This document shows positions 463-26,183 of a stretch of 26,183 nt of DNA, one piece after another. Below the pieces are notes generated by a model. The model was not told the DNA's origin. It made no database searches and saw nothing but the letters and a program-made list of their open reading frames with translations. Source of the DNA: a virus. Numbering within the stretch: position 1 is the first letter of the stretch; the number at the start of each line of letters is the position of its first letter. The position numbers and the translations under genes are program-made. Location: positions 1 to 26,183 of IMG/VR virus record IMGVR_UViG_3300020220_000285. One strand, written 5' to 3'.

Positions 463-3400
463 ATGGGTCTCTCAAGATTAGATAATTTTCTGAAGAATGT
501 TCGTGGCAACTTACTTTATGTTGATCCTAACAGTATTGATGCCACTGATGGTATTGAAAACCAGGGAAATAGTTTAACTCGTCCATTCAAAACAATTCAA
601 AGAGCTTTAATTGAAGCAGCAAGATTTTCCTATCAAAGAGGTTTAGATAATGATAGATTTGCAAAAACAACGATTATTTTATATCCTGGAGACCATCTTT
701 TAGATAACCGTCCTGGATGGATTCCAGATGGTGCGAACAATTTTATCAAAAGAAGTGGAGAGACCACAAGTGATTTCTTATCTTGGGATTCATTAACAAA
801 CTACAATTTAGCAACAGAGAACAACGCACTATACAAACTTAATTCAGTCTACGGTGGTGTAATTCTTCCAAGAGGAACATCCATTGTTGGAATGGACCTT
901 CGTAAAACAAGAATTCGTCCTACTTATGTTCCAAATCCAACAAACGATAATATTGAAAGATCGGCAATTTTCAGAGTTACTGGTGCTTGCTATCTCTGGC
1001 AATTTACCATTTTAGATGCAAATCCAAATGGAAACTGCTACATTGATCATTCACCAAACCTTTATGTTCCAAACTTTTCACATCATAAGTTAACTGCTTT
1101 TGAATATGCTGATGGTGTGAATAACGTTCATATTGATGACGCTTTTATTAATTATTCGACAGATAGAACTGACCTTGACATGTATTATGAAAAGGTTGGT
1201 TTAGCATATGGAGATTCTACTGGAAGACCAATTAGTCCCGATTATCCAAGTTCTGGTGTTGACATTCAAACAGTTGTCGATGAATTTCGCATCGTAGGTT
1301 CTAAGGGAGCCGCTGTTGGTATTTCAAGTATTAAATCCGGAGATGGTGTAAGTGGAACAACTGATATTACAGTCACCTTAACAGAATCACTTCCCGGATT
1401 AAACGTAGACACTTCAATTCAAATTAGTGGAGTAAGTTCGCCAGGTTACGATGGGCAATATACTGTTGCTGAAGTATTGAATTCTACCCAAATTCAGTAC
1501 CAAGTTCAAAACATTCCCGCAGATGTTCTTCCATCAAGTGCTGGAGCAACTTTAAACATTTCAGTAGATACAGTAACATCAGCATCTCCATATATCTTTA
1601 ACATCTCATTGAGATCTGTGTATGGACTTTGTGGTTTGCTAGCAGATGGAGATAAAGCATCTGGATTTAAGTCTATGGTTGTTGCTCAGTTCACCGGAAT
1701 TGGATTGCAAAAAGATGACAACGCTTTTGTAAAATATAATTCAATCGCAGGACAGTATGAAGATTCCACTTCAATAGTAGATTTACATACAAATTCACAG
1801 TCAAGATTTAAACCAGAATATGAAAACTTCCACATTAAAGGAACCAATGATGCATTCTTGCAGTTGGTTTCAATCTTTGCTATTGGTTATGCTAAGCATT
1901 TTGAATGTGAAAGTGGTGGAGACGTTTCTATTACAAACTCAAACTCAAACTTTGGAGCAAAAGCACTTAATGCTGTAGGATTTAAACGAGAAGCATTTCC
2001 AAGAGATGATATTGGATATGTGACACACATTATTACACCAAAAGAAATTGAAAATAATGAAGTAACATTTGAATTTAATTCAATTGACGTTGGAACAACT
2101 GTTGGCGTTGCTTCGACAAATAGACTTTATCTGTATAATGAAACAAACGAAGATTTACCACCAGAAACTGTTCTTGATGGATATCGTGTTGGAGCACGAG
2201 CAAACGACACCATTCACGTTTTAATTTCACAAACTGGTATTGTAACTCAGTATTCGGCAAAAATTATTATGCCCAATACTCAGTACACTGCAGATGAAAC
2301 TGATTATGAAAAAATATTTACCGTTGGAAGAAATGTAGGAATTAATAGTATTGGATTAAGTGGAAGTAATATTATCACTTTAACTGAAAATCATAGTTTC
2401 TTAAGTGGAGAATCAGTTCGAGTTATTAGTGATAATGGACATCTTCCCGATGGAATTGTTGCAAACCAAATTTATTTTGCAATTACTGATGGAACCCTTA
2501 CTTCAAATGAAATCAAATTGGCAGCAACACTGAATGATGTTATTTCAGAAAATGAGATTCAAATTAATACCAAAGGTGGTGTCTTACAAATTGTCAGTAG
2601 AGTATCCGATAAAAACTCAGGAGACATTGGACACCCAGTTCAATTTGATTCAAATGTTGAACAATGGTATGTCAATGTCGCAACAGCAGCTTCAGAAAAT
2701 AGCATTTATCCAACTATAATTGGACTTGGGACAGCAAATCTTGGTGATGCAACTCCAAGAACATATTTGACAAGAACTCCAGATAATCGTATTCTTGATG
2801 ACACAATTTATCGTATTAGATATGTAATTCCAAAAGATGCAATTACTCTTGCAAGACCACCATTAGAGGGTTCCATCATTCAAGAATCTAATAATGTTAT
2901 TGGCGCAGGAACTACAGAAATTCAAAAATATTTTAGTCCGACGCCAACTACAATTTCAAATTCCACCGAATTAAGAAATCCAAGATTTATTGCAGGTGCT
3001 GAATGGGATGGAACATATGCTCAAATTAAGACAGAAGTTCCACATAATCTTTCAGTTGGATCTCAAGTAGAGATTCAAAACATTATCAGTTCATCAAATC
3101 CTGTTGGTGTTGCAAACTCAGCATTCAACGGAACCTTTACTGTTGCGGGAATTAGCAGCACAAAAGTATTTACATATGAATTAGATACAAATCCAGGAAC
3201 TTTCCAAAACAATACTTCAACGAGAAATCAAAATCTTCCATACTTTAAGAGAAAGAAAACATCAGCAACTTATTCAATCTACAAAGTAGAAGAAGTTCAA
3301 CCATATATTCAAAATGTAAAAGATGGTGTATATCATCTTACAATTGTTAATCACGATAATCACCCAACAGTCGCACCATTTAGTGATCTTAAGTTTTCGC

Positions 3401-5334
3401 AACCAGTTAGAAACCTTTATCCACAAACAAACAGAGATCATCCACAATCAGATCCTAAAGCATCTGTTTGTTTTGCACTTCCAACACCAATTGGTCAAGT
3501 TGTTGTTGATGAACCACAAAATAGCATCACTAAAGAAACACTTCTAAAGACATTTGATGATTATACTGTAGGATTTGGAGTCACTGATATTGTTTCTACA
3601 ACAGGAACATCTCATACTATTTTTACCGAAATTGATCACGGATTTGCTGGTATCGCAACAGTAAGTATTGTGTCTGGAGGTTTGAATTATGGATTTGGTC
3701 CTGGTAACGTAAGTCTTTACAACGCAAAATTAGTTGGTTTTGCCGGATCAACTACTGGTGAAAATGCAACTGCACTAATTACAGTAAATGGTTCTGGAAC
3801 AATTACCAACGTTCAAATCATGGATGGTGGTAGTGCATATGGTATTGGAAACACACTGTCAGTTGTTGGAGTTGCGACAACTACTTCATTCTCTGCAGGT
3901 ATCGTAAGAGTTGAATCACTCCAAAATGCTATTAATGACACTTTAACCATCACAGCAATTAGAGACTCTGAAGCAGAAAATTATAACACTCTTTATAAGA
4001 TTGACTCCATAACTGTAGGTAAGTCAAAAGAATTGAATGTAACCTCTTGTGAAAGTATTTCTGGTTATTCAACGACCGGTATTGGAGTGACTACTTTACA
4101 GAGAACAGTTGCAACTGTAAATGGAAAAGCACTTGGCATTTCCACAATGATTTATAATGGTGTTACTGGAATTGCTACAATTACATTTAATACTACTCAC
4201 GGATATGGAGTAGATAACAAATTGAGAATTGGTGGTGCAGATAATTCACGTTTAAATCGTGATTTTATTGTCAAAAAAGTTAATAATCTCACTACACTCA
4301 CAGTTAATCCTGGTGTTACAACTGGTTCAACCTCAACAGGTGGTAACATTACAGTTTATAGGCATGATTTTTCATCTGCTGGTGGAGACTTGAGTGATGA
4401 GAATGAAAATACATCAGGAAGATTAATTCCAATTTATGCAGGAATCACTACTACATTAGGAATGTCTGTGTCCTCATCAACCACAAGCATTACAATTGAT
4501 AATGCAAAAAATATTGGAATTCAACTTGGAGATTATCTGTTAATTGACGATGAAATTATGCGTGTGAGGTCAACAGTTGTTAGTAATAATGTAACAGTTT
4601 TTCGTGGTCTTCTTGGAACTCTTGGTGCTTCTCACCAAATCAATTCTCTTGTAACTAAGATTAAAACATCACCAATTGAATTTAGAAGAAATTCACTTAT
4701 TCGTGCATCTGGTCATACATTCGAATATCTTGGTTTTGGACCTGGCAACTATTCTACTGCTCTTCCAGAAAGGCAGGATAGAATTTTATCTCCCATTGAA
4801 GAATTATTGGGACAAGCAACTAAAGTAAATGGTGGATTATGTAACTTCACTGGTATGACTGATACTGGTAATTTCTACACTGGCACCAAAAAACTGGTTG
4901 GAACTACAAGTAAAGAAGAAGTATTTGATGCTCCAATTTCAACTGTTACTGGTGAAGACATTTCCGTAGGTTCAAACAGTCTTGGATATAATACAATCAA
5001 TCCACTTGAAGCTCTTGTAGATCGTTCAATTACAGTTTCTGGTGGACCTGATGGAAATATTATTTCAGAATTCAACGGTCCAGTTGTATTTAATCAAAAG
5101 ATTACATCCACATCAGGAAAGGGAATTGAAGTTGGTTCCATGTTCATTAAGGGTGAAGAGGTAGTTTCCAGAAAATATACTGTAGGAGTTGGAACACCAT
5201 CAGAATCAGGTAATCCTGGTGATGTTGTTTATAATTCAAACCCAACTTCTGGTGGGTATCTTGGATGGGTTTATGTTGCAGACAATAGATGGGAACCATT
5301 TGGACAAATTGCTAATGTAGGTGTCTTTACTTGA
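463..5334 (+). CDS. Giant virion structural / tail fibre-like protein
   Basis: This 1623-residue protein is of a kind typical of T4-like cyanophage tail modules. Residues about 1-70 include LYVDPNSIDATDG and the phrase NSLTRPFKTIQRALIEAA, which resembles the opening of pectate-lyase-like beta-helix domains (GTxxxPFxTIQxAI). Residues 1060-1135 or so are Gly/Ser/Thr-rich beta repeats (SGGLNYGFGPGN, DGGSAYGIGN). Residues 1405-1500 hold the FRRNSLIRASGHTFEYLGFG segment seen in cyanophage fibre proteins. The C-terminus (GDVVYNSNPTSGGYLGWVYV) looks like a fibre tip or attachment cap. No catalytic residues are evident. The gene follows a CTAAATA late box and has no strong ribosome binding site near its ATG. 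A role in the adsorption apparatus is inferred; it may replace T4 gp10-12 or gp34-like functions, but that equivalence cannot be fixed from sequence alone. Confidence 0.8.
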   Translation: MGLSRLDNFLKNVRGNLLYVDPNSIDATDGIENQGNSLTRPFKTIQRALIEAARFSYQRGLDNDRFAKTTIILYPGDHLLDNRPGWIPDGANNFIKRSGETTSDFLSWDSLTNYNLATENNALYKLNSVYGGVILPRGTSIVGMDLRKTRIRPTYVPNPTNDNIERSAIFRVTGACYLWQFTILDANPNGNCYIDHSPNLYVPNFSHHKLTAFEYADGVNNVHIDDAFINYSTDRTDLDMYYEKVGLAYGDSTGRPISPDYPSSGVDIQTVVDEFRIVGSKGAAVGISSIKSGDGVSGTTDITVTLTESLPGLNVDTSIQISGVSSPGYDGQYTVAEVLNSTQIQYQVQNIPADVLPSSAGATLNISVDTVTSASPYIFNISLRSVYGLCGLLADGDKASGFKSMVVAQFTGIGLQKDDNAFVKYNSIAGQYEDSTSIVDLHTNSQSRFKPEYENFHIKGTNDAFLQLVSIFAIGYAKHFECESGGDVSITNSNSNFGAKALNAVGFKREAFPRDDIGYVTHIITPKEIENNEVTFEFNSIDVGTTVGVASTNRLYLYNETNEDLPPETVLDGYRVGARANDTIHVLISQTGIVTQYSAKIIMPNTQYTADETDYEKIFTVGRNVGINSIGLSGSNIITLTENHSFLSGESVRVISDNGHLPDGIVANQIYFAITDGTLTSNEIKLAATLNDVISENEIQINTKGGVLQIVSRVSDKNSGDIGHPVQFDSNVEQWYVNVATAASENSIYPTIIGLGTANLGDATPRTYLTRTPDNRILDDTIYRIRYVIPKDAITLARPPLEGSIIQESNNVIGAGTTEIQKYFSPTPTTISNSTELRNPRFIAGAEWDGTYAQIKTEVPHNLSVGSQVEIQNIISSSNPVGVANSAFNGTFTVAGISSTKVFTYELDTNPGTFQNNTSTRNQNLPYFKRKKTSATYSIYKVEEVQPYIQNVKDGVYHLTIVNHDNHPTVAPFSDLKFSQPVRNLYPQTNRDHPQSDPKASVCFALPTPIGQVVVDEPQNSITKETLLKTFDDYTVGFGVTDIVSTTGTSHTIFTEIDHGFAGIATVSIVSGGLNYGFGPGNVSLYNAKLVGFAGSTTGENATALITVNGSGTITNVQIMDGGSAYGIGNTLSVVGVATTTSFSAGIVRVESLQNAINDTLTITAIRDSEAENYNTLYKIDSITVGKSKELNVTSCESISGYSTTGIGVTTLQRTVATVNGKALGISTMIYNGVTGIATITFNTTHGYGVDNKLRIGGADNSRLNRDFIVKKVNNLTTLTVNPGVTTGSTSTGGNITVYRHDFSSAGGDLSDENENTSGRLIPIYAGITTTLGMSVSSSTTSITIDNAKNIGIQLGDYLLIDDEIMRVRSTVVSNNVTVFRGLLGTLGASHQINSLVTKIKTSPIEFRRNSLIRASGHTFEYLGFGPGNYSTALPERQDRILSPIEELLGQATKVNGGLCNFTGMTDTGNFYTGTKKLVGTTSKEEVFDAPISTVTGEDISVGSNSLGYNTINPLEALVDRSITVSGGPDGNIISEFNGPVVFNQKITSTSGKGIEVGSMFIKGEEVVSRKYTVGVGTPSESGNPGDVVYNSNPTSGGYLGWVYVADNRWEPFGQIANVGVFT

Positions 5335-5340
5335 TAAATA
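5333..5340 (+). promoter_or_regulatory. Late promoter box (GATAAATA)
   Basis: GATAAATA overlaps the stop of the preceding virion gene and lies 40 bases before the fibre ATG, in the NATAAATA form of T4-like late promoters. A clear ribosome binding site (AAGGAG, 5369-5374) follows six bases before the ATG. Confidence 0.7.
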
Positions 5341-5380
5341 ATAAAAAATAGAGGGGATAGTGAACCTCAAGGAGTAACCA

Positions 5381-7657
5381 ATGGCTATTCAAAAAGATTT
5401 TATCATTAAGAATGGTCTTGAAGTTAAAAGTAATTTAATTGTTGCCGATTCTACAGTTGAAAGGGTTGGAATCGGCACCAGTGTAATGAATAATAAACTC
5501 CAAGTTCTTGGAGGTATTGGAGCAACAAATATTGCAGTTACAGGAATTGGAACAATTCCAACTCTTAGATCAACAAACGCTTATATTGACACAACATATT
5601 CAAACGCAGGTATTATTACATCATTAAGTGGTATTGGAGCAACTTATTCAATTGCTAATTTTGAAATAGTTGGTGTCAATACTCTTAATGCAGTTAGTGG
5701 AATTGTTACTACATTAAGTGGTTCAAATGCATATTATACAAATACATTTGTTACTAATGAATATGTCAGTAACATTTTTGGTGTATCAGGTATTGTAACA
5801 ACATTAAATGGAACTACTGTTAGATATGATACTGCAAACATAGAAAATGGAAACATTGTTTCTGGTGTTGTCACTACAATTACAGGTACTAATCTAAATT
5901 ATAGTGGCATAGGAACTATTACTACAGCAAAAGCAACTACATTATTAGCAAATACAGGAAACATTGTTTCTGGTGTTGTCACTACAATTACAGGTACTAA
6001 TCTAAATTATAGTGGTATTGGTACAATTGCAACTTCTAAAGCAACTACATTATTAGCAACTGATGCATATGTTAACAGTGGTGTTGTCACTACAATTACA
6101 GGTACTAATCTAAATTATAGTGGCATAGGAACTATAGGTACTGCAAACATAGAAAATGGAAACATTGTTTCTGGTGTTGTCACTACAATTACAGGTACTA
6201 ATCTAAATTATAGTGGTATTGGTACAATTGCAACTTCTAAAGCAACTACATTATTAGCAACTGATGCATATGTTAACAGTGGTGTTGTCACTACAATTAC
6301 AGGTACTAATCTAAATTATAGTGGTATTGGTACAATTGCAACTTCTAAAGCAACTACATTATTAGCAAATACCGGAAACATTGTTTCTGGTGTTGTCACT
6401 ACAATTACAGGTACTAATCTAAATTATAGTGGCATAGGAACTATAGGTGGAGTTAAAATTCAAACTGGAATTATAACTTCCTCCAACTCTGGAGTTGTAA
6501 CTTATTATGGTGATGGTAGATATCTGCAAAACATTGTATCTGGCGTAGGAATTTCCACAGAACTTGGATTTGTTGGATTTGGTGCAACTATTCTCAATTT
6601 TGGGGGATCTGGAATTACTACAGTTACGGTTTCAAATGGAATTGGAACTATCTTTTTTGAAGGATTTGTTCCAGAAACTGTTGTGGGTGTTGTTACTGGA
6701 TATGGACTTGATATTGTAGGAGTATCGACTCTCACTGCAAATAGTGATTCTCCTGCACTTGATATCACACAAACTGGAAGAGGACTTGGAATTCTTGTCG
6801 GAAACGAAAGAGCAATTTCTGTAGGTTCTGCAACAACCACAGGAACTCCAAGACAAATATTGCAAGTTAATGGTGGTGGTGGTGCTTATGTTGCTGGAGA
6901 TGTTGCAATAGGTGTAACAAGAACAAATGGAGAAAAAGTAAGAATTGCTGGTGGTGCTATTATTACTGGAGTTACTACAGTTTCCAACGCAGCATCGTCA
7001 AGTGGAACAACAACTGGTGCCTTTGTTGTTACTGGTGGTGTTGGTATTGGAGGCAATATGAATATTGGTGGTGCTGTTGTTTCCAGTAGCACTGTCACTG
7101 CAACTCAGTTCATCAGAAGTGGTGGAACTGCTTCTCAAATTTTAATGGCTGATGGTAGTGTAGATTCATTCCCAGTCTCAGGTGATTGGTGGGGTGATAA
7201 GATACCACAAATTGGAAGTAATGGTGTAATGGAAATTGGAAGATATATTGACTTCCATTCAACTGATGCAACTACTTCAGATTTTACATTTAGATTTGAT
7301 AATAGTTCAGATGGAAATATGAGTTTCAGTGGAAGCTTAAGTGTAAATGGAAACATCACTGCTTCAGGAACAGTCACTGCAACTTCTGATGAAAGACTCA
7401 AAACAAACATTAAAACCATAGATAATGCACTTGAAAAGGTTCTTTCTATTCGTGGTGTAGAGTATGATAGAATTGATCTTGAAGAGCATCAGATTGGTGT
7501 GATAGCACAAGAAATTGAAAAGATTATTCCTGAGGTAGTTTATGGGGATGAAACAAAATCTGTTGCTTATGGCAATCTTGTTGGATTATTGATTGAAGCA
7601 ATTAAGGAGCAACAAGAAAGAATTGAAAAATTAGAACGAATTTTACATAATAAATAA
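5381..7657 (+). CDS. Tail fibre with S74 intramolecular chaperone
   Basis: This 758-residue fibre opens with MAIQKDFIIKNGLEVKSN, a start common in cyanophage fibres, followed by beta-rich GIGT/GVVTT repeats. Residues about 150-355 are a tandem array of nearly identical 36-residue units (see the repeat entry). Residues 640-758 form a peptidase S74 domain. SDERLK starts at Ser669 with Lys674, matching the family's Ser-Lys catalytic pair, and is followed by IGVIAQEIEKIIPEVV and a C-terminal coiled coil (IEAIKEQQERIEKLERIL). In this family the domain drives trimer folding and then cuts itself off, so cleavage is expected between Thr668 and Ser669. Expression is probably late, from GATAAATA with a good ribosome binding site. 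The protein most likely forms a trimeric fibre shaft, with the next three genes as candidate tips. Confidence 0.92.
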   Translation: MAIQKDFIIKNGLEVKSNLIVADSTVERVGIGTSVMNNKLQVLGGIGATNIAVTGIGTIPTLRSTNAYIDTTYSNAGIITSLSGIGATYSIANFEIVGVNTLNAVSGIVTTLSGSNAYYTNTFVTNEYVSNIFGVSGIVTTLNGTTVRYDTANIENGNIVSGVVTTITGTNLNYSGIGTITTAKATTLLANTGNIVSGVVTTITGTNLNYSGIGTIATSKATTLLATDAYVNSGVVTTITGTNLNYSGIGTIGTANIENGNIVSGVVTTITGTNLNYSGIGTIATSKATTLLATDAYVNSGVVTTITGTNLNYSGIGTIATSKATTLLANTGNIVSGVVTTITGTNLNYSGIGTIGGVKIQTGIITSSNSGVVTYYGDGRYLQNIVSGVGISTELGFVGFGATILNFGGSGITTVTVSNGIGTIFFEGFVPETVVGVVTGYGLDIVGVSTLTANSDSPALDITQTGRGLGILVGNERAISVGSATTTGTPRQILQVNGGGGAYVAGDVAIGVTRTNGEKVRIAGGAIITGVTTVSNAASSSGTTTGAFVVTGGVGIGGNMNIGGAVVSSSTVTATQFIRSGGTASQILMADGSVDSFPVSGDWWGDKIPQIGSNGVMEIGRYIDFHSTDATTSDFTFRFDNSSDGNMSFSGSLSVNGNITASGTVTATSDERLKTNIKTIDNALEKVLSIRGVEYDRIDLEEHQIGVIAQEIEKIIPEVVYGDETKSVAYGNLVGLLIEAIKEQQERIEKLERILHNK
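5830..6445 (+). repeat. In-frame 108-bp tandem repeats in the fibre gene
   Basis: A 44-base core starting GGTGTTGTCACTAC is present unchanged six times, beginning at 5864, 5972, 6080, 6173, 6281 and 6389. Spacings are 108, 108, 93, 108 and 108 bases, all multiples of three (36 or 31 codons). A higher-order copy is also visible: the segment coding ANIENGNIVSGVV occurs near 5832 and again near 6141. Base-level identity, not only protein similarity, points to recent unequal recombination or slippage. Confidence 0.93.
7649..7656 (+). promoter_or_regulatory. Late promoter box (AATAAATA)
   Basis: AATAAATA overlaps the end of the fibre gene and lies 21 bases before the ATG of the first His-rich tip-like gene. 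It fits the NATAAATA late consensus. Confidence 0.6.
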
Positions 7658-7677
7658 ATTACAAATGATTATGAAGT

Positions 7678-8352
7678 ATGGCAATTTTAGGTTCAAATTT
7701 CTTATCTGGGTGTGGTAGTATTCCAAATTTCATTGCAACTGGAAGTCGCATGGTTTTTGAGCAGACTAATGCGCCTGGACACAACCCGCCTGCTGCGCCA
7801 ACCAGTTGGACAAAAGAAACTAATGCTGCCTTTAATGATGTAGCACTCAGAGTAGTTACAGGACCAGCAGGTTCTGGTGGTGGATTACCATTCATAAGTG
7901 TTTTTCCAAATAGTCCAAAAGGATTATCTGGTGTTCCTCTTGCTGGACCATCAAATTTACAGGTTGAAGCATCAGGACCCATTCTTGCACTTCAACCTTC
8001 TCCAGCTGCTGTAAGTATGACGGCAACGCCTCTTTCTACTCCGCAAATGATTTCACATACTCATCCATATCAACAAAGAGCTACAGGACAAAATCCTAAT
8101 GCGGCTGGACAGTTATCAACCAGAACGGCTGATGCTACCACTAATCAAACCCCAATTCCCTCATCGAGTAGTTACGGCGGTGGTATCGGACATGCTCATG
8201 GAATTCAAGACCAGGGTCATGCTGGTCACCCAGTTAATCCTGGTAGTCACGGTCATGGTGTTAATCCTGTAAATCATACTCACCAATTTTCAATGACTGC
8301 AAGAGATTTTCGTCTCTTATACATGGACGTTATAATTTGTACTAAGAACTAA
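7678..8352 (+). CDS. His-rich tail fibre tip-like protein, paralogue 1
   Basis: This 224-residue protein is the first of three tandem paralogues. Its N-terminal half shares MAxLGSxxLxGCxxI, the GSRMVFEQT box, SWTKET and ALRVVTGPAGSGG with the next two proteins. Its C-terminal third is Gly/His-rich (HTHP, GHAHG, GSHGHG, NHTHQF) and ends YMDVIICTKN. Repeated HxH motifs line metal ions in the needle-like tips of T4 gp37 and related fibres, so a metal-stabilised trimeric tip or receptor-binding head is inferred. Between the two parts lies a variable Pro/Ala-rich stretch. Paralogue 1 carries a unique Pro-rich insertion (NAPGHNPPAAPTS). No signal peptide or enzyme motif is visible. A late box directly precedes it. 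An accessory head-fibre role cannot be excluded. Confidence 0.72.
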   Translation: MAILGSNFLSGCGSIPNFIATGSRMVFEQTNAPGHNPPAAPTSWTKETNAAFNDVALRVVTGPAGSGGGLPFISVFPNSPKGLSGVPLAGPSNLQVEASGPILALQPSPAAVSMTATPLSTPQMISHTHPYQQRATGQNPNAAGQLSTRTADATTNQTPIPSSSSYGGGIGHAHGIQDQGHAGHPVNPGSHGHGVNPVNHTHQFSMTARDFRLLYMDVIICTKN

Positions 8353-8363
8353 AGTAGAAACCA

Positions 8364-9026
8364 ATGGCAACTCTCACCAATAATAGTTTAGACAATTGCA
8401 CTTCAATACCTGATTTTATTCCTGCAGGAACGAGAATGGTTTTTAGTAGTAGTACTGCTCCATCCAGCTGGACAAAAACTACAGATCATAGTAACAAGGC
8501 ACTTAGATTAGTCACTGGGCCCGTTAGCCCTGGAGGATCAACCGTATTCTCAACTGTTTTTCCTGATCAGTTCGACAAACCAGTTGCTGGCAGTATAAAC
8601 TCAGTTGACTCTGCTGATACATTTCAGGGAGCAACCGTTCCGGTGCAAGCAACAACAGGTTCTTTTGATGCATTTCCAACATGGATTATTCAACCAGTAA
8701 CAATAGATGAACAAGAAACAGCTATTCATAATCATTCTTATAACCGTCGAGCTCCTGGTACTAATACTGCCGGTCAAACCGGACCTACACAATGTATTAA
8801 AGATAATATAGAACCAATTTCATTTGGTGGCTCTGGTGCTGGTGGAAGTCATGCTCATGCATGGCCAACCCCGGCGCAAGCATCGAAACCACATAATCAT
8901 CCATTAAGTGCCCAACCACATTCGCACGGTGTTTCACCGCAAGGACCACATTCTCATGGATTTACAACAACAGCACAAAACTTTAAGATTAAGTATGTTG
9001 ATGTAATTGTTTGTAGTAAAAATTGA
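8364..9026 (+). CDS. His-rich tail fibre tip-like protein, paralogue 2
   Basis: This 220-residue protein starts 11 bases after paralogue 1. It keeps the N-terminal frame (FIPAGTRMVFSSS, SWTKTT, ALRLVTGP, GGSTVFSTVF) and the C-terminal YVDVIVCSKN end. The His-rich region is the fullest of the three (HNHSY, GSHAHAW, KPHNHP, QPHSHGV, GPHSHGF). The central portion, where receptor specificity would be expected, is unlike either neighbour. Co-transcription with paralogue 1 is likely given the spacing. The function is inferred from HxH-bearing fibre tips, not demonstrated. Confidence 0.72.
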   Translation: MATLTNNSLDNCTSIPDFIPAGTRMVFSSSTAPSSWTKTTDHSNKALRLVTGPVSPGGSTVFSTVFPDQFDKPVAGSINSVDSADTFQGATVPVQATTGSFDAFPTWIIQPVTIDEQETAIHNHSYNRRAPGTNTAGQTGPTQCIKDNIEPISFGGSGAGGSHAHAWPTPAQASKPHNHPLSAQPHSHGVSPQGPHSHGFTTTAQNFKIKYVDVIVCSKN

Positions 9027-9057
9027 TTATACATAAAAATAAGAGGTAGTTAAAAAA

Positions 9058-9729
9058 ATGGCAGTTTTAGGATCAACAACTCTTACTGGTTGTGAATACA
9101 TCGAAGATTTTCTTGGAGGATATATTCCAGGAACTACCACCAGACCCATGTGTGTTTTTAATCAAACCACTCCATCCGTCAGTTGGACAAAAGTAACTAA
9201 TTCTGCATACAATGACATTGCACTCAGAGTGGTTACAGGTGGCAGTGGTAATCAGATTTCTGGATCTACAGTATTTTCTTCGGTTTTAACTACAAAAAGT
9301 ATAGGATTATCAATTAATCCCGCATCTGCAGGCGTGGGTTTTCAGCAAGCATCTGGAAATGTATCAGTAGGTCAAGCACATGGGTATTCACCAGGTCAAG
9401 GTTTGAATCTGCAGGGTGAGCTAGCTAATTTGCCCCCTCATGTTCATTCTTTTAATAGAAATCGTGCACAACCTGTTTTAGACGCAAACGTAGCACGAAC
9501 AAATGCAACTTTAACTGGTCCCTTTAACTCTGGTTCCTCTGGTTCAAATGTTCAACATATACACACTGGCAACTGGGGACTTCATGCTCACGGAGTTACT
9601 AACTCAGCTACTCATGGTCATCAAATCACTGGATCACATTCACATACAGTCTCTGGGCCTCTAACTCAAGAAAACTTTGCAGTTCTTTATCGAGACGTAG
9701 TAATTGCAGAAAAGGACAAAAAACCATAA
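9058..9729 (+). CDS. His-rich tail fibre tip-like protein, paralogue 3
   Basis: This 223-residue protein is preceded by an AAGAGG ribosome-binding-site-like sequence. It shares the N-terminal scaffold (MAVLGSTTLTGCEYIEDF, SWTKVT, ALRVVTGG, GSTVFSSV) but has an eight-residue or so insertion before the VFNQTT box. The C-terminal part has HVHSF, HIHTG, HAHG, HGHQ and HSHTV, and ends YRDVVIAEKDKKP, so it lacks the CTKN/CSKN tail of its siblings. It is the last gene of the fibre module; a host-type promoter follows immediately. Confidence 0.72.
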   Translation: MAVLGSTTLTGCEYIEDFLGGYIPGTTTRPMCVFNQTTPSVSWTKVTNSAYNDIALRVVTGGSGNQISGSTVFSSVLTTKSIGLSINPASAGVGFQQASGNVSVGQAHGYSPGQGLNLQGELANLPPHVHSFNRNRAQPVLDANVARTNATLTGPFNSGSSGSNVQHIHTGNWGLHAHGVTNSATHGHQITGSHSHTVSGPLTQENFAVLYRDVVIAEKDKKP

Positions 9730-9730
9730 T

Positions 9731-9759
9731 TTGACATTCGAGTAAAAATACATTATAAT
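9731..9759 (+). promoter_or_regulatory. Consensus sigma-70 promoter
   Basis: TTGACA (9731-9736) and TATAAT (9754-9759) are separated by exactly 17 bases, a full match to the bacterial housekeeping promoter. It sits just after the stop of the fibre-tip gene and 21 bases before the ATG of the double oxygenase. It should be read by unmodified host RNA polymerase, so the downstream block can be expressed early even though it lies among late genes. Confidence 0.88.
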
Positions 9760-9780
9760 CTAATTGATAAAATAGTTGCC

Positions 9781-10983
9781 ATGAATCAGAAACTTCTAAC
9801 CAATAATTATCTTATTATTCCCAATTTCATTAACTCTCACAGAGCACGAGAACTTGGAAATGATTTTAAAGTTTATTCAGAATCAAAGAATAATGGTGGA
9901 GACTCACAAGCACCAAATTCCCAAGTTGATTATAACTACATTTCCTTTTTAGAATTACTTTGTGAGAAAACCCAGCAGGTATCTTCTATTTTGGAAGAAA
10001 CTGTACTTCCAACTTATACATACTCAAGAGTGTATTATAATGGAAGTGTTCTTGAGAGGCATAAGGATCGTGATGCTTGTGAGATTTCACTTACTCTTCA
10101 CTTGAATGGAGACAAATCCTGGCCGATTTCTATTCAAACTCCAAGTGGTGAAGAAAAATCGGTGATTCTGGAATCGGGAGATGCAATGATGTATCTTGGT
10201 ACAATTGCAGAACACTGGAGAAATGCTTATGATGGAGACTATTACACTCAAGTATTTCTTCATTATGTAAGAAGTCGTGGTGATTGTGCCTATGCTTACT
10301 TTGATAAAATTAAAAATAAATCAGATTCTGAAGAACAGCACTCTGAAGTAACAGTCAAAGAAGAAATTAAAGAAGAAACAAAACAAACTAAAAAATCAAT
10401 TGAGTTAATCGTGCCAAATCCCGCAAATACTTTAGAGCAATACATTCATGTGTTTGATGACATTGTTCCTAATGAATTATGTGATGAAATTTTAAGTGAG
10501 TATGAAAATAGTGGTGATTGGTCTGATAGTTTAGTTGGTGGAGGAGTTGTAAGTAGAGATACAAGAAATTGTGATCAGATTTTAATTTCGGGTCATGACA
10601 TTATCTCAAAGAATTATGACAGAAGAAAGAAAATTGATGAAATGATTCACGAATCTGTACGAAAAGCAATTCATAAATACCACGAGTGTCATAAAGAGTT
10701 TGAAATTTCAATTGACACTGGTTATCAAATTTTAAGGTATCAAGAAGGTGGGTTTTATGTTCAACACACCGATTCCTTTAAAGAACAACAAAGATCAGTT
10801 TCTTGCTCTTTACATCTCAATAATGATTATGAAGGTGGTAACTTTGGATTTTTTGACAGACAAATGCAAGTTAGGTCAGGAAAAGGTTCCGCCGTAATGT
10901 TCCCATCCAACTTTATGTTCCCTCATGAAATTATGCCTGTTACAAAAGGAACTCGGTACTCTATTATTACTTGGTTAGTATGA
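9781..10983 (+). CDS. Fused double 2OG-Fe(II) oxygenase
   Basis: This 400-residue protein contains two 2-oxoglutarate/Fe(II) dioxygenase folds joined by a charged linker (about 178-207, rich in Glu and Lys). In the N-terminal domain the candidate iron ligands are His94, Asp96 (ERHKDRD) and His145 (AEHWRN), followed by YTQVFLHYV. In the C-terminal domain they are His329, Asp331 (VQHTDS) and His382 (FPHEI), with Arg392 (KGTRYS) placed to hold 2-oxoglutarate, as in prolyl-4-hydroxylase-like enzymes. Such enzymes hydroxylate protein or nucleic-acid side chains using oxygen. The substrate is unknown; the adjacent Gly/Pro-rich fibre proteins are an attractive but unproven target. The gene is driven by a consensus host-type promoter and overlaps the next oxygenase by four bases. 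Confidence 0.87.
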   Translation: MNQKLLTNNYLIIPNFINSHRARELGNDFKVYSESKNNGGDSQAPNSQVDYNYISFLELLCEKTQQVSSILEETVLPTYTYSRVYYNGSVLERHKDRDACEISLTLHLNGDKSWPISIQTPSGEEKSVILESGDAMMYLGTIAEHWRNAYDGDYYTQVFLHYVRSRGDCAYAYFDKIKNKSDSEEQHSEVTVKEEIKEETKQTKKSIELIVPNPANTLEQYIHVFDDIVPNELCDEILSEYENSGDWSDSLVGGGVVSRDTRNCDQILISGHDIISKNYDRRKKIDEMIHESVRKAIHKYHECHKEFEISIDTGYQILRYQEGGFYVQHTDSFKEQQRSVSCSLHLNNDYEGGNFGFFDRQMQVRSGKGSAVMFPSNFMFPHEIMPVTKGTRYSIITWLV

Positions 10984-18287: not shown

Positions 18288-18506
18288 ATGTTAGAATATG
18301 CTCACAATCTAAAGAATACTATGACTCTTGCAAAATCTGGATATTGTAAACTTACAAAAGAAGAATGGGAAGAATTAACTGCCCTAAAAGAGGCAATTAA
18401 TTATAACCCAAGCACAGTAACTCCAGATAAAATGGAAAAGTTTACAGAACTCTTTGTACGTTCTCTTGAAGAACGTGGGGGCTATCAAAGTGTTGATGTA
18501 GTATAG
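18288..18506 (+). CDS. Small hypothetical protein
   Basis: A 72-residue, mainly helical protein (CKLTKEEWEELTALKEAINY) follows a 57-base AT-rich gap in which I see no clear promoter. No family is recognised. Confidence 0.65.
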   Translation: MLEYAHNLKNTMTLAKSGYCKLTKEEWEELTALKEAINYNPSTVTPDKMEKFTELFVRSLEERGGYQSVDVV

Positions 18507-18520
18507 GCATTACTCTCTCA

Positions 18521-18652
18521 ATGCGTAGATTTATTATTTTTTCCCTATTGGGAATCATTGCATATAATTATTTCCTGATACAACGAGACGATCAGATGTT
18601 TCGAAAATATTATCAGGACAAAGCACAAACTGAAATGAATTCTTCACAATGA
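18521..18652 (+). CDS. 43-residue single-pass membrane peptide
   Basis: The sequence begins MRRFIIFSLLGIIAYNYFLI, giving two Arg followed by one transmembrane helix. A polar tail (RDDQMFRKYYQDKAQ) follows. The stop overlaps the next gene by four bases (ATGA). It is a probable inner-membrane peptide; the function is unknown. Confidence 0.65.
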   Translation: MRRFIIFSLLGIIAYNYFLIQRDDQMFRKYYQDKAQTEMNSSQ

Positions 18653-23776: not shown

Positions 23777-23962
23777 ATGAAAACATCCTCAGATTTTCCA
23801 TATGCTTCCTTTCCAATTCGTTTGGAGTTTAAGGAGGGAAAAACAATGAGAGTTTGTTACTTTCAGGATCAAACTCATCTTAATAAGTATTTGATTAGTC
23901 ACAAAATTAGTAAAAAACAGGCAGGAATAAAATATAACGAGAAAACAACTGGGGGCGAGTAA
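23777..23962 (+). CDS. 61-residue basic small protein
   Basis: A strong AAGGAGGG ribosome binding site precedes the ATG. The product is beta-rich, then basic (MRVCYFQDQTHLNKYLISHK, KISKKQAG). Its last codons (TTGGE and stop) lie inside the G-rich repeat element: a C-to-T difference from the other two copies turns CAA into the TAA stop. Confidence 0.66.
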   Translation: MKTSSDFPYASFPIRLEFKEGKTMRVCYFQDQTHLNKYLISHKISKKQAGIKYNEKTTGGE

Positions 23963-23980
23963 AGTGTTTCTATAGTGTAG
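23945..23980 (+). repeat. G-rich promoter-like repeat, copy 1
   Basis: ACAACTGGGGGCGAG is followed by TAAAGTG, TTTC and TATAGT (-10 candidate, 23971-23976). The first G of GGGGG (23951) is exactly 20 bases before the -10. The next ATG is at 23999. A hairpin around the -10 (GTTTCTAT with GTAGAGAC) is specific to this copy. Confidence 0.7.
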
Positions 23981-23998
23981 AGACAACTGCAAATCTAA

Positions 23999-24142
23999 AT
24001 GTTTGACGAACTCTGGCAAGAAATCCAAGATTCTTCTGGTGAAATCTTCGATATTCCTGAGGATGAACTAGAAGAAATCCATCGAACTTTTGCTATGTCT
24101 GAGGAAGAGTTTTTGATGACTTTTGATGACAACTCAAACTGA
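23999..24142 (+). CDS. 47-residue acidic protein
   Basis: A very acidic, helical frame (FDIPEDELEEIHRTFAMSEE) lies just behind repeat copy 1, from which it would be transcribed. A phage DNA mimic or regulator is conceivable from charge alone, but there is no family evidence. Confidence 0.62.
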   Translation: MFDELWQEIQDSSGEIFDIPEDELEEIHRTFAMSEEEFLMTFDDNSN

Positions 24143-24148
24143 TTTCTA

Positions 24149-24457
24149 ATGGCAACCTGGACTGCTAACATCAAAACTACACCAACAGGATCAATTTATC
24201 CTGTAAAGGTTCATGCGGATGCGTATTCGACCGCAAGAGAAGAGATTGAACGTCTTTATGATCCAATCTTTATGACTAATCTGAGAAAGATTAGTTCTTC
24301 TTTGTCATCTTCCTCCGATAGTTCTGGTGTAGGTGCCAATTCAATTCTTTGGTTGATTGGTATTTTTATTGTTATGGTCTTTTGGCCAGTAACTCTAACA
24401 ATTATTGCAATCTGGGTTATCTACAAAATTGCTCAATTCTTTCAAGACAATGCTTGA
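24149..24457 (+). CDS. Membrane protein
   Basis: A 102-residue protein has a soluble N-terminal part (MATWTANIKTTPTGSIYPVK, AREEIERLYD), a Ser-rich linker, and a long hydrophobic C-terminal stretch (NSILWLIGIFIVMVFWPVTL, TIIAIWVIYKI) that likely crosses the membrane twice. The layout recurs in cyanophages; the function is unknown. It overlaps the next gene by eight bases. Confidence 0.72.
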   Translation: MATWTANIKTTPTGSIYPVKVHADAYSTAREEIERLYDPIFMTNLRKISSSLSSSSDSSGVGANSILWLIGIFIVMVFWPVTLTIIAIWVIYKIAQFFQDNA

Positions 24458-24620
24458 CTCTGATTTACTTTTTCGTTACGAAGAAGGTAATGTAACTGAA
24501 GAAGAGTTTGTGACTCTTTTTCAGCAAATCTATGACACTCAAGCATACAAATGGTTGCAGGGTCATTATGGTCGCACACTGTCTACATTGTGCTCTGCTG
24601 GTATTATTCATCTTTCTTAA
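24450..24620 (+). CDS. 56-residue conserved protein
   Basis: The ATG at 24450 is chosen because an upstream in-frame ATG lies well inside the membrane-protein gene. The sequence contains FRYEEGNVTEEEFVTLFQQI and YKWLQGHYGRTLSTLCSAGI. The WLQGHYGRT phrase is a recurring cyanophage small-protein motif; the function is unknown. Confidence 0.7.
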   Translation: MLDSDLLFRYEEGNVTEEEFVTLFQQIYDTQAYKWLQGHYGRTLSTLCSAGIIHLS

Positions 24621-24622
24621 TT

Positions 24623-24811
24623 ATGACTCCTGATACTTACACTTTCTCTGGTGATATTGTCACCTTTCTTGGTCTGGTTGGTGTTGCATCCACTTTTTTA
24701 ATTGTTGTTACTGCATTTCGCAGATTCTTCAATTCTCCTTACAATCTGCGTGTGACACCTAAACAACCGTCCACTAAATTGCCTACCGACAACGAAACTC
24801 CCGTATCCTAA
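24623..24811 (+). CDS. 62-residue membrane protein
   Basis: The ATG at 24623 follows the previous stop by two bases. There is one transmembrane segment (IVTFLGLVGVASTFLIVVTA), followed by Arg-Arg and a Pro/Thr-rich tail, suggesting the tail is cytoplasmic. The function is unknown. Confidence 0.68.
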   Translation: MTPDTYTFSGDIVTFLGLVGVASTFLIVVTAFRRFFNSPYNLRVTPKQPSTKLPTDNETPVS

Positions 24812-24814
24812 ACA

Positions 24815-25009
24815 ATGACTGACACCGTTAACGTTCTTCCTCACATCAACGAACTCAAAGAAATCTGGCGCAAGCAAGATTTCATTTTCACTAAAGATCA
24901 ACAGCAACAATATGATATTTTGATTGCTGCTCGACATGAACGAGTTAAGTATTTTTATCAAAACAATCTTGTTTATAAACCTTTGACCCGTAAAGAGGTG
25001 GTGATCTAA
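24815..25009 (+). CDS. 64-residue helical protein
   Basis: It starts three bases after the previous stop. The sequence is helical (INELKEIWRKQDFIFTKDQQ, QYDILIAARHERVKYFYQNN). No domain is recognised. A late box overlaps its end. Confidence 0.66.
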   Translation: MTDTVNVLPHINELKEIWRKQDFIFTKDQQQQYDILIAARHERVKYFYQNNLVYKPLTRKEVVI

Positions 25010-25012
25010 ATA
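25006..25012 (+). promoter_or_regulatory. Late promoter box (CTAAATA)
   Basis: CTAAATA spans the stop of the preceding gene and lies 24 bases before the ATG of the basic internal-protein candidate. It is identical to the box before the large virion gene at 463. Confidence 0.7.
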
Positions 25013-25036
25013 ATAAAAAGATTAGTTTGGATTGCA

Positions 25037-25600
25037 ATGAAGACATTTCGGGAGTTTATTTCTGAAGCATATGATAAGGATGTAATGTCATCCTCACAGA
25101 TACGTCGTCAAGGTGAAGGGGGACGTATCGGTGCTGAGCGTAAGAAATCTGCTCCTGAAAAACGTCGAATGAAAGCAGCAGGTGGCGGCAAAATGGTCCC
25201 CGCTAAAGATTACAAACTTCGCAAAGATATTGGAACTCAACGTAAAACAGAAACAAGAGTTCAACAACCAGAAAAAGAAAGAGGTTCAGCAGCTCTTTCG
25301 GCAAAAGAAGCACAACGTAAAGCATACTTAGAAAGAAAACGTAGAGAGGCAGGAGAGAAAACTAAGACAGCATCTGAGCTCTTAAGAAAGAAAGAAGCAC
25401 CTAAGAAACCAGTTGCTGGTTATACTCCACCCAAAGCATCTGGAAAAACGAAAGAAGAAAGAAAGGCTTTATACAAAAGAGGTGAAACTGCACTGAGGGA
25501 TGTTGTATTGAAGAGTACAGGCAAAAAGAGTGAATCGGAGTTAAAAAATCCAATCACACAATCTGAGATCACCAGAAGAAACAAAAAGAAAAGTAAGTAA
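25037..25600 (+). CDS. Basic head internal-protein candidate with capsid-targeting sequence
   Basis: This 187-residue protein starts MKTFREFISEA, very close to the capsid-targeting sequence of T4 internal proteins (MKTYQEFIAEA). In T4 this segment sends the protein into the prohead and is cut by the gp21 protease after I-x-E or L-x-E; here the equivalent cut would follow ISE at residue 10. The rest is extremely rich in Lys and Arg, low in hydrophobics and probably disordered (QIRRQGEGGRIGAERKK, KDIGTQRKTETRVQQPEKER), as expected of a DNA-associated protein packed with and injected beside the genome. It has a CTAAATA late box. The pattern recurs in T4-like cyanophages, usually unannotated. An alternative is a prohead core component. 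Confidence 0.72.
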   Translation: MKTFREFISEAYDKDVMSSSQIRRQGEGGRIGAERKKSAPEKRRMKAAGGGKMVPAKDYKLRKDIGTQRKTETRVQQPEKERGSAALSAKEAQRKAYLERKRREAGEKTKTASELLRKKEAPKKPVAGYTPPKASGKTKEERKALYKRGETALRDVVLKSTGKKSESELKNPITQSEITRRNKKKSK

Positions 25601-25634
25601 ACTGGGGGCGAGCAAAGTGTCTCTATAGTATAGG
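25598..25634 (+). repeat. G-rich promoter-like repeat, copy 2
   Basis: AACTGGGGGCGAGCAAAGTG begins directly after the stop of the basic protein gene and is followed by TCTC and TATAGT (25624-25629), again 20 bases from the first G. The core CTAT-AGT-ATAG forms a short hairpin over the -10. The next ATG is at 25648. Confidence 0.7.
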
Positions 25635-25647
25635 CACTTCCTCCCAA

Positions 25648-25809
25648 ATGACCCGAATTGAGATCCAACGCAAACTCTATGATGCTCGCAATGCTTATCT
25701 GAAAGCAAAGAAAGAGATGGAGTTTCAACAACGTGAAATTGCGTTCCTGAAGCAGTGTGAAAAGGAACTCAATCAACCTTCCCTGTATGAACAACTGTAT
25801 GGTGTTTGA
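25648..25809 (+). CDS. 53-residue helical protein
   Basis: The frame lies immediately behind repeat copy 2. It reads MTRIEIQRKLYDARNAYLKA, then a long helix (KKEMEFQQREIAFLKQCEKE), and is likely a coiled coil. No function is known. Transcription from the repeat would leave a leader of about ten bases with no ribosome binding site visible. Confidence 0.64.
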   Translation: MTRIEIQRKLYDARNAYLKAKKEMEFQQREIAFLKQCEKELNQPSLYEQLYGV

Positions 25810-25811
25810 TT

Positions 25812-26009
25812 ATGAAAACTGTTGAAGTTTCTGTTACAACTCTGGAAACTCTAATTGAGGGTTTGCAGGATGCACTGAATGTGTGCTATAATGTAGATTC
25901 AACTGATAATAATTGCGAACGCAGTTATCCTTTTGCAACTGGATATAGTCGAGGTACGATGGAATGTCTTATTAAAGATCTCGAACGTCTAAAGTCCCAA
26001 GCAAAGTAA
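25812..26009 (+). CDS. 65-residue conserved protein
   Basis: The ATG at 25812 is used rather than an upstream TTG. It contains VSVTTLETLIEGLQDALNVC and RSYPFATGYSRGTMECLIKD. The YPFATGYSR phrase recurs in cyanophage small proteins. The function is unknown. Repeat copy 3 starts right after the stop. Confidence 0.68.
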   Translation: MKTVEVSVTTLETLIEGLQDALNVCYNVDSTDNNCERSYPFATGYSRGTMECLIKDLERLKSQAK

Positions 26010-26010
26010 A

Positions 26011-26046
26011 ACAACTGGGGGCGAGCAAAGTGTCCCCATATTAGAT
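26011..26046 (+). repeat. G-rich promoter-like repeat, copy 3
   Basis: ACAACTGGGGGCGAGCAAAG is followed by TGTCCC and CATATT at the -10 position (26037-26042), 20 bases from the first G. TGGGG and CCCCA (26016-26020 with 26034-26038) pair perfectly here; in copies 1 and 2 the same pairing needs G-U pairs. It lies directly before the helicase gene. Confidence 0.68.
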
Positions 26047-26047
26047 T

Positions 26048-26183
26048 ATGATTCCCATGCAACTTCAACTCCGTCCGCATCAAGAACGTGCTGTTGCTGC
26101 TATGCAAAAGCACAACAAAGGTCAGGTGATTGTGCCTACTGGTGGTGGCAAGACTCTGAAGATGATTTATGATGCTCTGCGTG
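26048..26183 (+). CDS. Superfamily 2 DEAD/DEAH-type helicase (3' truncated)
   Basis: Only the first 45 residues are visible. They contain LQLRPHQERAVAAMQKHNKG (the Q-tip-like motif of SF2 enzymes) and the Walker A motif VIVPTGGGKTLKM, which binds ATP. The start may be 26048 or 26057. The lack of an N-terminal domain before the motifs distinguishes it from T4 UvsW, which has a leading extension, so this is the shorter cyanophage SF2 helicase type, presumably acting in DNA replication, recombination or repair. It would be expressed from repeat copy 3. Confidence 0.9.
   Translation, partial: MIPMQLQLRPHQERAVAAMQKHNKGQVIVPTGGGKTLKMIYDALR

Follow-up and report, generated by a model that had tools for sequence, protein, structure and literature searches.

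Our analysis shows that the G-rich element repeated in the window (the whole 26,183-nucleotide stretch of DNA that was analysed) is the form that an element widespread among cyanomyoviruses takes in one lineage. In this element, a lineage-specific left box, with at least 40 versions, is joined directly to the shared core AAAGTGTCCCTATAGT-RTRAGCA. The element is repeated at fixed spacing, on one strand and at gene starts; its core is shared, its box is lineage-specific and a -35 sequence has been lost. Textbook promoters replace it or stand in tandem with it, and terminators occur upstream. Based on these observations, we think it probable that the element is a -35-less promoter of the host RNA polymerase whose left box is bound by a lineage-specific and probably phage-encoded factor; the start site, the factor and the timing are what we infer.

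The first half of the window contains tail-fibre genes and a ferrochelatase-like gene, after which many small genes follow until a helicase gene begins; the named phages that match the window best are Synechococcus and Prochlorococcus myoviruses. One open reading frame (ORF; 9781-10983) encodes two domains joined together, one ferrochelatase-like and one 2OG-Fe(II) oxygenase-like (PHROGs). Exact matches to CTGGGGGCGAG are found on the + strand at 23949, 25602 and 26015, and the window holds no other mismatch-free site. Copy 1 (23946-23983, +) combines left box AACTGGGGGCGAGT with core AAAGTGTTTC; its hexamer, TATAGT, lies at 23971-23976, the predicted +1 is near 23983 and the ATG of a 47-aa ORF is at 23999. 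Copy 2 (25599-25636, +; left box AACTGGGGGCGAGC, core AAAGTGTCTC, TATAGT at 25624-25629) serves a 53-aa ORF of phrog_19748 (25648-25809, +) whose ATG is at 25648. Copy 3 (26012-26049, +) has the same left box as copy 2, core AAAGTGTCCC and the degenerate hexamer CATATT (26037-26042), and serves the helicase gene (phrog_16; start of the gene at 26048-26182, +), with an ATG at 26048 or 26057. These three near-exact copies are 73-100% identical over 45 nt in alignment, and the earlier note's description of a conserved repeated element at fixed spacing holds. So does its geometry, since GGGGG begins exactly 20 bases 5' of TATAGT, TATAGT and CATATT, and so does its placement between a stop codon and an ATG, with copy 1 overlapping the upstream stop and copies 2 and 3 lying within a few bases after it.

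A weight matrix of the shared core gave copies 1 and 2 scores of 26.4 and 34.5, whereas none of 60 shuffled windows exceeded 11.6. For copy 3 the score was just 5.8, owing to the degenerate hexamer, although both its left box and AAAGTGTCCC are exact. The count of three given earlier was correct for near-exact copies, but a fourth, degenerate one had been overlooked, which the weight matrix from relatives detected with a score of 13.7. This decayed copy lies at approximately 18472-18509 (+) and reads TGGGGGCTATC AAAGTGTTGA TGTAGT ATAGGCA, with its hexamer at 18497-18502 and its core starting at 18487, 34 bases 5' of the ATG of a 43-aa ORF at 18521. The window also encodes a basic protein with the N-terminus MKTFREFISEAYD (25037-25600), as does contig L286 (4816-5421); relatives of this protein were detected in three or four genomes that carry the element and in none of the seven that lack the core. 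Its N-terminus resembles the peptide that targets T4 internal head proteins to the capsid.

The family was described from 459 unique copies, collected by a search that was seeded with TATAGT and allowed two substitutions in the core, and the conservation of TATAGT is therefore partly ascertainment. Numbering from the first A of AAAG as 0, the left box (-15 to -1) comprises 197 distinct 14-mers, with an invariant C at -5 and a G at -9 in 89% of copies. In this search-biased set, positions 0-9 are AAAGTGTCCC, the hexamer TATAGT occupies 10-15, R-T-R follows at 16-18 and AGCA closes the element at 22; the core is near-invariant and its distance to the left box unchanged. Left-box identity is 0.93 within a contig versus 0.50 between contigs, while the flanks are random (~0.3), a pattern that fits a site read by a lineage-specific factor and indicates that the box is recognised and not merely carried along. 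A set of orthologues chosen solely by their downstream protein (phrog_19748 type) is free of the pattern search. Eleven of its 12 members keep the element at a similar distance from the start codon, with seven different left boxes among them and the hexamers TATAGT, TATAAT, AGTAGT, AATAGT and TGTAGT; this confirms the layout. Variable spacing in homologues had been named beforehand as a point against the element, and the fixed spacing that we found speaks in its favour. The G-rich box, by contrast, does not define the class as had been supposed: it is lineage-specific, and relatives carry GTTACTCACCTCT, GGATCC-type and other boxes.

A search for the exact G-box form alone hid this wider family, as it returned three other contigs (L001, L002 and L003). 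L001 matches the end of the window at all three copies, and both L002 and L003 have five exact copies plus a sixth with TGGGGGCTAG. L002 opens with a small gene that in the more distant contig L019 lies between the helicase and DUF6267 genes, which suggests that the window and L002 are probably adjoining parts of one phage type; S-SM2 likewise has a small gene between these two genes. L019 itself carries TTTGGGGCCTTGAAAGTGTnCCAGTAGTATGAGCAC at equivalent places. S-SM2 has the form AAAGGGGGGTCGCCTAAAGCGTCCCTATAGTATGAGCA, and SynMITS9220M01 has TGTTACTCACCTCTAAAGTGTCCCTATAGTATGAGCA, which contains no G-run. A further form in S-B05, ATTACTCACCTCnAAAnGTCCACTATAGTGTAACCAC, was too divergent for the pattern search of eleven named genomes and was recognised by reading the sequence. 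The shared core AAAGYGTCCCTATAGTRTRAG has at least 120 matches in the viral collection. S-SM2, SynMITS9220M01 and contig G005 each hold 9-10 copies, all on one strand and at gene starts, within one ~14 kb cluster where small variable genes are numerous (42.7-57.1 kb, 36.3-50.0 kb and 156-169 kb, respectively). The genes served include those for a helicase, DUF6267 (GC71), DUF7717 (GC68) and many functionally uncharacterised proteins. The genome scan scored no copies in Syn9, P-SSM4, Syn33, S-CAM7, S-BM3 or S-PM2, and a single weak match in S-RSM4. A blastn search of copy 3 against named phages gave a single Acinetobacter match, which we regard as a chance hit.

Several lines of evidence support the promoter reading. 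A best match to TTGACA of at least 4/6 at spacers of 16-18 was present in one of the 459 copies versus 56 in shuffled controls, so a TTGACA-like -35 is depleted below chance; the promoter-like look with a special box in the -35 place, proposed earlier, is borne out. The hexamer matches TATAAT at 5/6 positions in 384 of the 459 copies, a figure biased by the search pattern. Terminator-like hairpins with T-runs were found upstream of 19/459 copies, downstream of two and in 7/443 control stretches, and most of the upstream hairpins end 9-15 bases 5' of the left box. Terminators are enriched upstream, though most copies have none. The twelfth protein-chosen orthologue, in L291, has TTGACA-N17-TATATT where the element would be. 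The DUF6267 gene in other cyanophages is preceded by sigma-70-like promoters, and the one in S-SRM01 reads TATACT-GTAAGCA, the same -10/start pattern as the element. The helicase gene of S-SM2 is preceded by a weak element and then a tandem TTGACA-N17-TATACT. The element resembles the sigma-70 early promoters of cyanophages in its -10/start geometry and its position at orthologous genes, but those promoters have a TTGACA-like -35 and mostly TATAAT.

Two other arrangements were seen at these genes. In S-BM3 (L027), Bellamy (L160) and S-CREM2 (L164), a -10-like hexamer accompanied by a plausible -35 stands exactly six bases before the ATG of the DUF6267 gene, so that its message would be leaderless. 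In SynMITS9220M01, a long hairpin (TAGCACCCTTTACA...TGTAAGGGTGCTA; 42545-42640) lies directly 3' of the element that precedes the helicase gene.

The position of the start codons poses a paradox for the promoter reading. An ATG directly follows TATAGT in 219 of the 459 copies, and in 196 of these it is in frame with the gene and open for at least 45 codons; GTG is nearly absent from this place. Of the copies that have another ATG within 60 bases, 141/174 are in frame (p ~4e-38, kinship ignored). In copies lacking the adjoining ATG, the first ATG is mostly 15-21 bases on, in any frame. However, 89 copies have no second in-frame ATG within 30 bases, among them the DUF6267 gene in 28 sequences, and TATAGT is equally well kept in them. 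A start seven bases past the hexamer cannot express the genes of these single-start copies, and transcription of these genes must start further upstream than predicted; a terminator precedes at least four of the copies without a second start. Avoidance of an out-of-frame ATG or of GTG suggests that read-through messages are translated across the element, which is compatible with a promoter. Either the terminators are leaky, or the true start is 5' of the ATG, or the element also acts in RNA.

The last of these options leads to the strongest rival, which we nevertheless consider unlikely: the element would act in RNA as a polycistronic leader (for translation control or as a processing site), with the start codon being the ATG at its end or one 15-21 bases on. 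The in-frame ATG at the hexamer, the peak of the next in-frame ATG at 15-21 bases and the avoidance of GTG all agree with such a leader. Left boxes also pair with GTGTCCC at 4.97 of 7 positions versus 3.03 for shuffled boxes, and those of G-rich lineages can fold. Although this in-register complementarity exceeds that of shuffles, covariation is absent: at every pair, the paired fraction equals what independence predicts, and no stem forms in boxes such as GTTACTCACCTCT. The stem put forward in the earlier note was therefore rejected as the main explanation. Terminators directly 5' of some copies and sigma-70 promoters as replacements further argue against a leader, and no Rfam family matched at gathering thresholds.

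It is improbable that the copies are mainly recombination points, where short homologies maintained by gene conversion allow small genes to be shuffled. Box and core are alike within a genome while the flanks are unrelated, and the cluster contains many small variable genes, as would be expected of such points. However, this leaves the gene-start placement, the single orientation, the -10-like hexamer, the loss of TTGACA and the cross-lineage core unexplained, and scans of complete genomes gave no equally conserved copies inside genes or in opposite orientation. A role in recombination can coexist with promoter function. We give slightly less credence still to ordinary weak sigma-70 promoters that are alike through recent duplication: TATAGT is near TATAAT, but the random flanks, the depleted -35, the conserved spacer and a pattern kept across many lineages oppose this. 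Use of the element by a single-subunit RNA polymerase of the T7 type is very improbable and was rejected. The core resembles the heart of T7/SP6 promoters (CACTATAG), and a start at the G of TATAG would resolve the ATG paradox through near-leaderless messages, but no polymerase of that family was detected in six element-carrying records while the T7 and P-SSP7 controls were positive.

The middle promoters of T4 combine a MotA box at about -30 with TATAAT and are controlled by AsiA/MotA. The element is similar in having a special box instead of a -35, a fixed distance to a -10-like hexamer and several copies per genome. Unlike T4, the element phages lack both proteins: profile searches for MotA and AsiA (PF09114, PF09010) found neither in six element-carrying records, including two complete genomes of isolates that hold the exact core, and detected both in the T4 control. 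This agrees with the earlier expectation that MotA is absent, and control of the element by MotA/AsiA was rejected. The box also differs in sequence from the TTGCTT-like MotA box, since inspection by eye found a TGCTT core in none of the 60 commonest of the 197 left boxes; it is lineage-specific and confined to one small-gene cluster. A T4-style middle-gene class is not established, because the genes served are not the typical replication genes of T4 middle promoters, and the general middle class proposed earlier does not agree with copies restricted to a single cluster. The element is also unlike the T4 late promoter TATAAATA, as its hexamer is TATAGT followed by RT. Cyanomyoviruses have been described as lacking motA and asiA, with an unclear mechanism of early and middle transcription, and a putative middle promoter motif has been reported in P-SSM4 and Syn9 (review PMC2984593). 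That motif is likewise from cyanomyoviruses and was proposed for middle transcription, but both genomes lack the present core; the comparison is by description rather than by motif sequence.

PeSLs (Arbiol 2010, Comeau 2014) are reportedly cassettes that combine a promoter with a stem-loop in T4-type phages, and shuffling of small genes by recombination is said to have been proposed for them. As far as the citing article (PMC4503421) presents these cassettes of T4-type phages, they are the closest described organisation to the element: both are repeated intergenic regulatory cassettes among small variable genes, and a terminator precedes some copies. On this account, the element differs in having no sigma-70 -35, a long conserved spacer and a terminator in a small share of copies (the 19 upstream cases above). 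A different repeated cassette resembling PeSLs precedes many genes in S-CAM7 (L028, ~2200-9850); a stem-loop such as GGGGGCTAGGCAAGCCCCC comes first, then TACAAT or TATATT, then a short leader, and in some cases AGTGTCCACT is also present near the upstream stop codon.

Taken together, we propose that the -10 region of the promoter would be TATAGT followed by RTRAGC, with a start at or near the A seven bases past the hexamer. The left box, ~23-36 bases 5' of the start, would be bound by a factor in place of a -35 hexamer. This factor is probably phage-encoded and co-evolving with the box, and would recruit RNA polymerase like MotA in T4. The promoters would lie between genes of a cluster that upstream read-through also transcribes, so that the in-frame ATG adjoining the hexamer could still be used on long read-through messages. 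A search for proteins restricted to element carriers gave no candidate, being swamped by spurious ORFs and by the kinship of carriers. More tentatively, and at somewhat less than even chances, T4-like cyanophages may possess a family of activators unrelated to MotA, whose DNA recognition shifts by lineage while the core stays fixed, so that every phage lineage would have a private promoter code for one gene cluster.

The literature that we searched, with most subscription journals outside its scope, contained no account of this element. It apparently represents an undescribed large family of phage switches, most likely promoters, in which one half is common across many phages and the other differs between lineages as a "password". 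The variable box set against a constant core offers a ready-made series of variants with which to look for the factor that recognises the box. Moreover, the isolates S-SM2 and SynMITS9220M01 carry this defined element, whose geometry is fixed and whose gene set is known, which makes the question of how T4-like cyanophages control genes between the early and late phases directly testable.
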